DNA of 32,037 nucleotides from positions 1-32,037 of the forward strand of contig JACQKW010000009.1 of assembly GCA_016204385.1 (NCBI GenBank). Reading direction: 5' to 3'. Both the position numbers and the translations under genes were made by a program. Source of the stretch: Candidatus Liptonbacteria bacterium. GTDB taxonomy: Bacteria > Patescibacteriota > Minisyncoccia > UBA6257 > 2-01-FULL-56-20. Position 1 is the first letter of the stretch, and every line of letters begins with the position of its first letter. This document shows positions 31,238-32,037 of the stretch, piece after piece. The notes beneath the pieces are model-generated. The model was not told the origin of the DNA. It searched no databases and was given only the letters and a program-made list of their open reading frames with translations.

Positions 31238-31345
31238 TAAAAGAGGATTTGATCCTGGTCCAGGATGAACGCTGGCGGCGTGGATAAGGCATGCAAGTAG
31301 AACGGACGTAGCAGCCAGCTTCCAGCTACTAGCTTCCAGCCCGGA

Positions 31346-31354
31346 TGATATAAT
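31346..31354 (+). promoter_or_regulatory. Extended -10 promoter element inside the 16S gene
   Basis: TGATATAAT (TGnTATAAT) 7 nt upstream of the ATG at 31362. Confidence 0.55.
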
Positions 31355-31361
31355 GGCAAGT

Positions 31362-31712
31362 ATGTCTTTCCGTTACAGAGATTTCCGTGTGTACAAAGAG
31401 GCGATTAGTTTTCATCGCTTGATAGTACAACTCACACGAAAATTTTCTAAAGAGTTTGAGTACTTACGGAATCAAATGAGACGAAGTTCTTTATCGGTAG
31501 TGTTAAATGTTGCTGAAGGGTCAGCGAAAAACTCTGATAAAGATTTCCGAAGATACCTGACAATATCATTAGGTTCGATCAACGAATCTATGGCTGGTTG
31601 TGAAGTAGCGTTAGCTGAGCATCTCATTGTACAAAGTGAGTTTCATCAGGCTGAGAAGGCTGCGGAGAACTTGGTAAAGCAACTCGGCAGTTTTGTTCAG
31701 AAATTGAAGTAG
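31362..31712 (+). CDS. Four-helix-bundle protein (23S rRNA intervening-sequence protein family, IVP)
   Basis: MSFRYRDFRVYKEAISFHRLIVQLTRKFSKEFEYLRNQMRRSSLSVVLNVAEGSAKNSDKDFRRYLTISLGSINESMAGCEVAL; family-typical RDFxVYKxA.. and RRSSLSVxLNxAEGSA. Alternative ATG 31353. Confidence 0.92.
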   Translation: MSFRYRDFRVYKEAISFHRLIVQLTRKFSKEFEYLRNQMRRSSLSVVLNVAEGSAKNSDKDFRRYLTISLGSINESMAGCEVALAEHLIVQSEFHQAEKAAENLVKQLGSFVQKLK

Positions 31713-32037
31713 CTGTTGGCTGGTGGCTGGCAGCTGGTTGCTATGTTAGTTGCGAACGAGTTAGTAACACCCTGGTACGTACCCCAGAGTCGGAGATAGC
31801 TCATAGAAAGGTGAGGTAATATCCGATGGTCCGTCCTTCGCTTTTTGCTCCGCAAAAAGCTTCGGAACGGCAGGCCCGCAAGAGCTTGCCAGTCCGTAGC
31901 TCTTTACGAAGTAAAGAGCGTAGGATGGTAAAGTCGCAAGACGCTCTGGGATCGGCCTAGGTCCGATCAGCTAGTTGGTAGGGTAATGGCCTACCAAGGC
32001 GATGACCGGTAGGGGAGGTGAGAGCCTGACCCCCAAC

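Follow-up and report, generated by a model that had tools for sequence, protein, structure and literature searches.

Insertions in helix 6 (h6, V1) of 16S rRNA occur as ORF-less IVSs in Caedibacter, Helicobacter and Campylobacter, where they leave the 16S rRNA fragmented. Intervening sequences (IVSs) of rRNA in general have been known for more than 25 years and have long been suspected to be remnants of mobile elements, their origin and the function of their ORFs being unexplained (PMC4990558). In Coxiella the S23p ORF of the 23S IVS is preceded by tandem heptamers (GACAGAT), and RNase III cuts this IVS at the first of the repeats (PMC4990558). For CPR bacteria, 23S_rRNA_IVP ORFs were reported in 2024 in insertions of both 16S and 23S, at sites 16IS6, 16IS7, 16IS9 and 23IS11 (Tsurumaki 2024, PMC11270868), and an IVP ORF in a CPR 16S insertion is, to that extent, known in kind. 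Heptameric intergenic repeats have also been described, including the cyanobacterial STRR of Nostoc, GGGAATC in Xanthomonas and TAACTGA in Beggiatoaceae. In the open-access literature no paper was found that joins IVSs, intergenic IVP genes and heptameric repeats.

The window analysed here, 32,037 nt in length, is the whole of one contig (C15) from a CPR-type genome of 605 kb and 80% completeness (G000; G, L and C numbers denote the compared genomes, loci and contigs). In this window the 16S gene is interrupted in helix 6 by a block of 453 nt (Table 1), the last 16S base before the insert being 31298, at the end of the leader GGCATGCAAGT, and 16S restarting from 31752 at GCGAACGAGTTAGTAACACC. 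The alignment to a covariance model that a sequence-only reading of the same DNA had proposed as a check bears this out, since the Rfam bacterial SSU model matches 16S from h6 onward with 146 bits, and in relatives without an insertion h6 occupies 25-92 nt at the same position. The contig stops within 16S, at model position 311, whereas the 3' part of the gene lies on contig C14, with positions 312-766 unassembled; C14 also carries the RNase III gene (rnc), which follows the 16S at a distance of a few kb. No second 16S copy was found in the genome assembly, and 23S is absent from it.

Table 1. Features of the interrupted 16S gene in the window.
Feature	Position	Strand	Remarks
Whole h6 (V1) insertion	31299..31751	+	between 16S GGCATGCAAGT and GCGAACGAG
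5' strand of 32-bp imperfect stem	31301..31334	+	cofold of arms
5' heptad array, five units	31309..31343	+	TAGCAGC CAGCTTC CAGCTAC TAGCTTC CAGCCCG; direct repeat
IVP / S23 four-helix-bundle ORF, 119 aa	31353..31712	+	ATG..TAG, intact, rRNA sense
3' heptad array, five units	31710..31744	+	TAGCTGT TGGCTGG TGGCTGG CAGCTGG TTGCTAT; inverted repeat
3' strand of 32-bp imperfect stem	31718..31751	+	cofold of arms
16S rRNA 3' of insertion, up to contig end	31752..32037	+	RF00177 match

The IVP gene inside 16S is a small gene flanked by two mirror-image arrays of seven-letter repeats. Cofolding of the two ends gives 32 pairs (3+16+13), and a 511-nt stretch folds with a z of -6.15 relative to dinucleotide shuffles, none of 100 being as good. 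Both stem arms are arrays of degenerate heptamers, inverted and mutually complementary, and the first TAG of the 3' array (31710) is at the same time the stop codon of the ORF. The insert thus sits at the tip of an rRNA helix with complementary ends, as an IVS does, and also has inverted complementary heptad arrays on both sides of its ORF. The earlier reading had claimed an IVP-family ORF in rRNA sense orientation, placed in the 16S V1 helix within an imperfect stem of about 31 bp; all of this is upheld, and its span of 31308-31744 agrees almost exactly with that of the heptad arrays, which it had not recognised as such.

Other parts of the 16S gene also depart from the usual outline. The helix 10 region (31842-31920) contains about 77 extra nt forming long, non-heptad hairpins, and in the 3' part of the gene on C14 the helix 44 hairpin is extended (L003:1455-1490). 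A second insertion of about 800 nt lies near E. coli position 1060 (L003:290-1090), holding a seemingly truncated LAGLIDADG_3 ORF fragment (E 9e-10); no Rfam intron matches this insertion at E up to 1.

The 119-aa ORF belongs to the IVP family, with matches to TIGR02436 (2.7e-24; 85.5 bits against a cut-off of 24) and to PF05635, 23S_rRNA_IVP (9.7e-24; 84.1 bits against a cut-off of 33.8). An AlphaFold monomer model (pLDDT 95.8) is a four-helix bundle, for which the nearest solved fold is Xcc0516 (2gsc; TM 0.93), followed by BT_0352 (2rld) and, next after these S23 structures, by Avd of diversity-generating retroelements (8ube, 4dwl; TM about 0.8). The likeness to Avd extends to the four-helix bundle itself, the solved structures of the Avd/S23 type being pentameric. 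Avd systems, however, have a reverse transcriptase (RT) and TR/VR next to the gene, whereas contig C15 contains no RT and the single RT match of the genome is on C8, so that on the RT criterion the ORF was rejected as a retroelement Avd. PF05635 is the only Pfam match in the ORF, which has no LAGLIDADG, GIY-YIG, nuclease or recombinase family match, and a LAGLIDADG or GIY-YIG homing element was likewise rejected. A group I or group II intron was discarded for want of a catalytic core, no Rfam intron model matching in the window at gathering score.

Among the described systems closest to the insert are the 23S IVSs with an S23p/IVP ORF of Coxiella and Leptospira. Like the insert, these are about 430-450 nt long, replace a helix tip, encode an IVP ORF in the sense of the rRNA, and have inverted repeats at their ends that pair into a stem of about 30 bp. 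Heptamers precede the ORF in Coxiella as well, whereas here they occupy both arms. Unlike those IVSs, the insert is in 16S helix 6 and its excision is putative. The site, V1/h6, is that of the IVSs of Caedibacter, Helicobacter and Campylobacter, but theirs are without an ORF. The ORF of the Coxiella IVS is said to be decaying, while the IVP proteins encoded in 16S h6 appear, from sequence comparison, to be under purifying selection, as in the pair from G067 and G044 (dN 0.095, dS 0.61, dN/dS about 0.15). The insertions of Tsurumaki 2024 are likewise IVP ORFs in CPR rRNA, scattered there over several sites; the accessible part of that article describes no IVP site in h6, no inverted heptad arms and no link to intergenic IVP genes (PMC11270868), all of which are present here.

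The link to intergenic genes begins in the genome itself, where three other IVP genes are intergenic, with repeat-rich flanks of different sequence and no rRNA context found at any of these three loci. Flanks were compared by local alignment with strict scoring for 78 IVP loci of the order (121 related genomes) and 173 control ORFs. The complementarity between upstream and downstream flanks averaged 15.4 for IVP loci against 8.6 for controls (p 5e-24), and fell to 8.1 when flanks of different IVP loci were paired with each other. Within the arms of the 78 loci, identity at lags of 7, 14 and 21 nt was 0.61, 0.56 and 0.55, against about 0.28 at most other lags. A further 77 IVP loci, drawn from GTDB genomes across several phyla (among them Fibrobacter, Synergistaceae, Chloroflexi, Acidobacteria and Thiobacillus), gave the same result (p 9e-19; lag-7 identity 0.65). 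Most of the tested intergenic IVP genes, in CPR and in several other phyla, are therefore bordered by inverted complementary heptad arrays, which is not the case for controls, although about one third of IVP loci in the two sets have low scores and no convincing arms. Array sequence varies from locus to locus, the arms of one locus being mostly not complementary to those of others, but TAG or CTA is found within the units of 116 of 178 arrays, where 46 would be expected. Heptads are also present at IVP genes of cyanobacterial plasmids, in direct rather than inverted orientation at L149 and L151. At L149, on a Pseudanabaena plasmid, the IVP gene lies between cas6 and cas4 amid long direct AAAAGCT/AAAAGCC arrays; another IVP locus (L264, in G300) is found amid four tRNA genes. 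Since intergenic IVP genes share these arms, the 16S insert would be one example of a more general mobile cassette rather than something confined to the ribosome.

An indication of movement comes from one junction on Nostoc plasmids, filled by a cassette in L237, L239 and L241 and empty in L238, L240 and L242, the three empty plasmids having a 3-nt intergene without heptads, whence the arms belong to the mobile unit. The cassette is about 420 nt long where uninterrupted, with the layout ATCAGGAGTCAG... ATG-IVP-stop ...CTGACTCCTGACTTCTG, and recurs with matching ends between other genes on plasmids of Aulosira, Trichormus and Scytonema. Internally deleted copies are also present, and in L241 (1296-1476) an ORF-less, heptad-armed element of 181 nt, with heptads resembling those of the host cassette, splits the IVP ORF. 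No clear target-site duplication was seen at the Nostoc cassettes. On these comparisons, the repeat-armed IVP cassette apparently moves among sites in many bacteria.

At 16S h6 the same kind of insert is recurrent, contrary to the view of it as an uncommon, isolated site; for CPR bacteria such ORFs in 16S insertions had already been published (PMC11270868). The search for IVP in 16S genes of related genomes, as suggested by the sequence-only reading, yielded seven genomes with an IVP ORF in h6 in the order-level sample and 11 more in a class-wide search of 384 genomes, making 18 in all (G000 and 17 others of the class), with the ORF in sense orientation in every copy. In IVP trees, built on about 110 columns, the 18 h6 elements form two main clades plus one, the h6 label needing at least three changes, and sister pairs cross family borders (G000 with f88, G032 with f15, G006 and G072 each with f52). 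Moreover, G032 and G026 belong to one genus, yet h6 is filled in the former and empty in the latter; for G000, no closely related strain with an empty site came to light. The pattern at h6 is, judged by these trees and site comparisons, one of homing-like horizontal spread or of repeated entry into the same site. Inserts of 105-190 nt without an ORF occupy h6 in twelve further genomes; several are visibly heptad hairpins, and their pooled lag-7 identity of 0.35 is a modest signal compared with the 0.24 of uninserted h6. In seven h6 inserts (L068, L070, L022, L074, L077, L082, L086) the stem bases are near-palindromic hairpins in their own right, so that a base can form either a pair of hairpins or a single long stem, and in one 16S (L286, in G319) an h6 IVP insert coexists with an intron of group I (58.9 bits to RF00028).

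The arms in h6 differ from those elsewhere in the nature of their mismatches. Over the 18 h6 elements, GU exceeds AC by 62 to 21 (p 8e-6, the elements being related and the trials not fully independent), and does so individually in 15 of 18, whereas non-h6 IVP loci have no such bias (GU 74, AC 86). The restriction of the bias to h6 implies that arm complementarity is generally a property of the DNA, to which maintenance as an RNA stem is added within rRNA, as would be expected if a DNA-level terminal repeat doubles as an RNA stem for RNase III. By analogy, the pattern fits excision by RNase III as in the Coxiella 23S IVS.

Taken together, we consider it probable that the insert is an rRNA IVS formed by a mobile, heptad-armed IVP cassette that has settled in 16S helix 6, in which a single IVP gene is enclosed by two arrays of degenerate heptamers, inverted and complementary to each other. 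The arms would pair in pre-rRNA, RNase III would cleave the resulting stem, and the IVS RNA would leave without ligation, such that a two-piece 16S would be kept together by its own structure. The IVP pentamer may recognise the heptad arms and either mobilise or protect the element; since no nuclease or recombinase family is matched by the ORF, a host enzyme may take part. Several observations count against this explanation, among them the IVP loci with no convincing arms, the two cyanobacterial cassettes with direct heptads and the lack of a clear target-site duplication. Another is the orientation of intergenic cassettes, which between two co-directional genes are sense in 99 cases and antisense in 6. 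Plain transposition of DNA would not be expected to give this bias unless selection acted, and it suggests that the cassettes either depend on transcription by the host or pass through an RNA intermediate.

The latter would be a sub-model of the mobile cassette rather than its competitor, with IVP acting as an Avd-like accessory of a reverse transcriptase in trans, and we give it a minor chance. It would account for the Avd fold match and for the sense bias, in h6 as between genes, and an RT gene is found in 51 of 80 genomes with IVP against 13 of 41 without (p 0.001), G000 having one. That association, however, is confounded by the size of the genomes and by the inclusion of Avd genes in the IVP counts, 29 genomes with IVP have no RT match, and the complementarity of intergenic arms is without an RNA signature. 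Y1 transposases are similarly associated (25 of 80 against 3 of 41; p 0.003), and as both associations are positive, neither enzyme is singled out. We find it rather unlikely that the insert is an ordinary, immobile IVS, acquired once by the lineage and inherited, with a stem solely for RNase III and heptads as slippage noise. The Coxiella IVS is described as vertically maintained, with a variable number of heptamers (PMC4990558), and the RNA-level signature of the stem agrees with such a reading, which does not, however, accommodate an h6 IVP tree departing from the genome tree, the filled and empty sites within one genus, or heptad arms without GU bias at intergenic IVP genes.

Somewhat less probable still is that the arrays lie outside the element, as pre-existing slippage repeats like those of Nostoc, Xanthomonas and Beggiatoaceae, targeted by IVP genes. 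Tandem heptamers are indeed abundant in some genomes, with no stated link to IVP (PMC4692102, PMC4679880), but the empty Nostoc sites have no heptads and uninserted h6 has no lag-7 signal, identical arm sequence accompanies the cassette to new sites, and the upstream arm of a locus is complementary to its own downstream arm and mostly not to arms of other loci. The described repeats resemble the heptads here in being 7-nt tandem intergenic units, some in inverted pairs, whereas the heptads here are the two arms of an IVP cassette. A self-splicing intron with an IVP ORF in place of a homing endonuclease is very improbable, as the sequence-only reading had already judged; group I and II introns do exist at other CPR 16S sites (PMC11270868), but apart from the lack of an Rfam intron match at gathering score and of a LAGLIDADG or GIY-YIG match, the ends of the insert form one continuous stem. 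Finally, an assembly artefact is unlikely, as 6 further genomes of the order and 11 more of the class have IVP ORFs in this very position of h6. The termination of the contig within 16S and the incompleteness of the genome could be cited in favour of a chimera or 16S pseudogene, which we nevertheless regard as scarcely credible, given these 17 other assemblies, the single 16S found, and a flanking 16S that aligns well with its pairs kept. The interpretation of the earlier reading is, overall, partly supported.

The preferred reading, of a mobile cassette settled in h6, places the insert in a wider context. The heptad-armed IVP cassette is apparently, from the sequences compared and with novelty judged on open-access literature, a widespread and previously undescribed kind of mobile element linked to rRNA IVSs. 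We hold it an even prospect that IVP genes constitute a widespread minimal class of mobile elements, each with one gene of about 120 codons in which no recombinase or nuclease domain is recognisable, bordered by inverted arrays of some 3-5 heptamers that often have a TAG/CTA core, and that these elements yield ORF-less derivatives, may explain part of the bacterial heptameric repeats, and enter rRNA genes with their arms serving as RNase III stems; it may be speculated that the IVP pentamer reads one heptad per subunit. If a mobile IVP cassette, through its terminal repeats, provides the ends of IVSs, then the origin of IVSs, the role of the IVP family, a large and uncharacterised one, and part of the heptameric repeats become one question. 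The h6 copies would also expose the length and continuity of CPR 16S genes to horizontal transfer, which is relevant to 16S surveys with primers or cut sites in V1.
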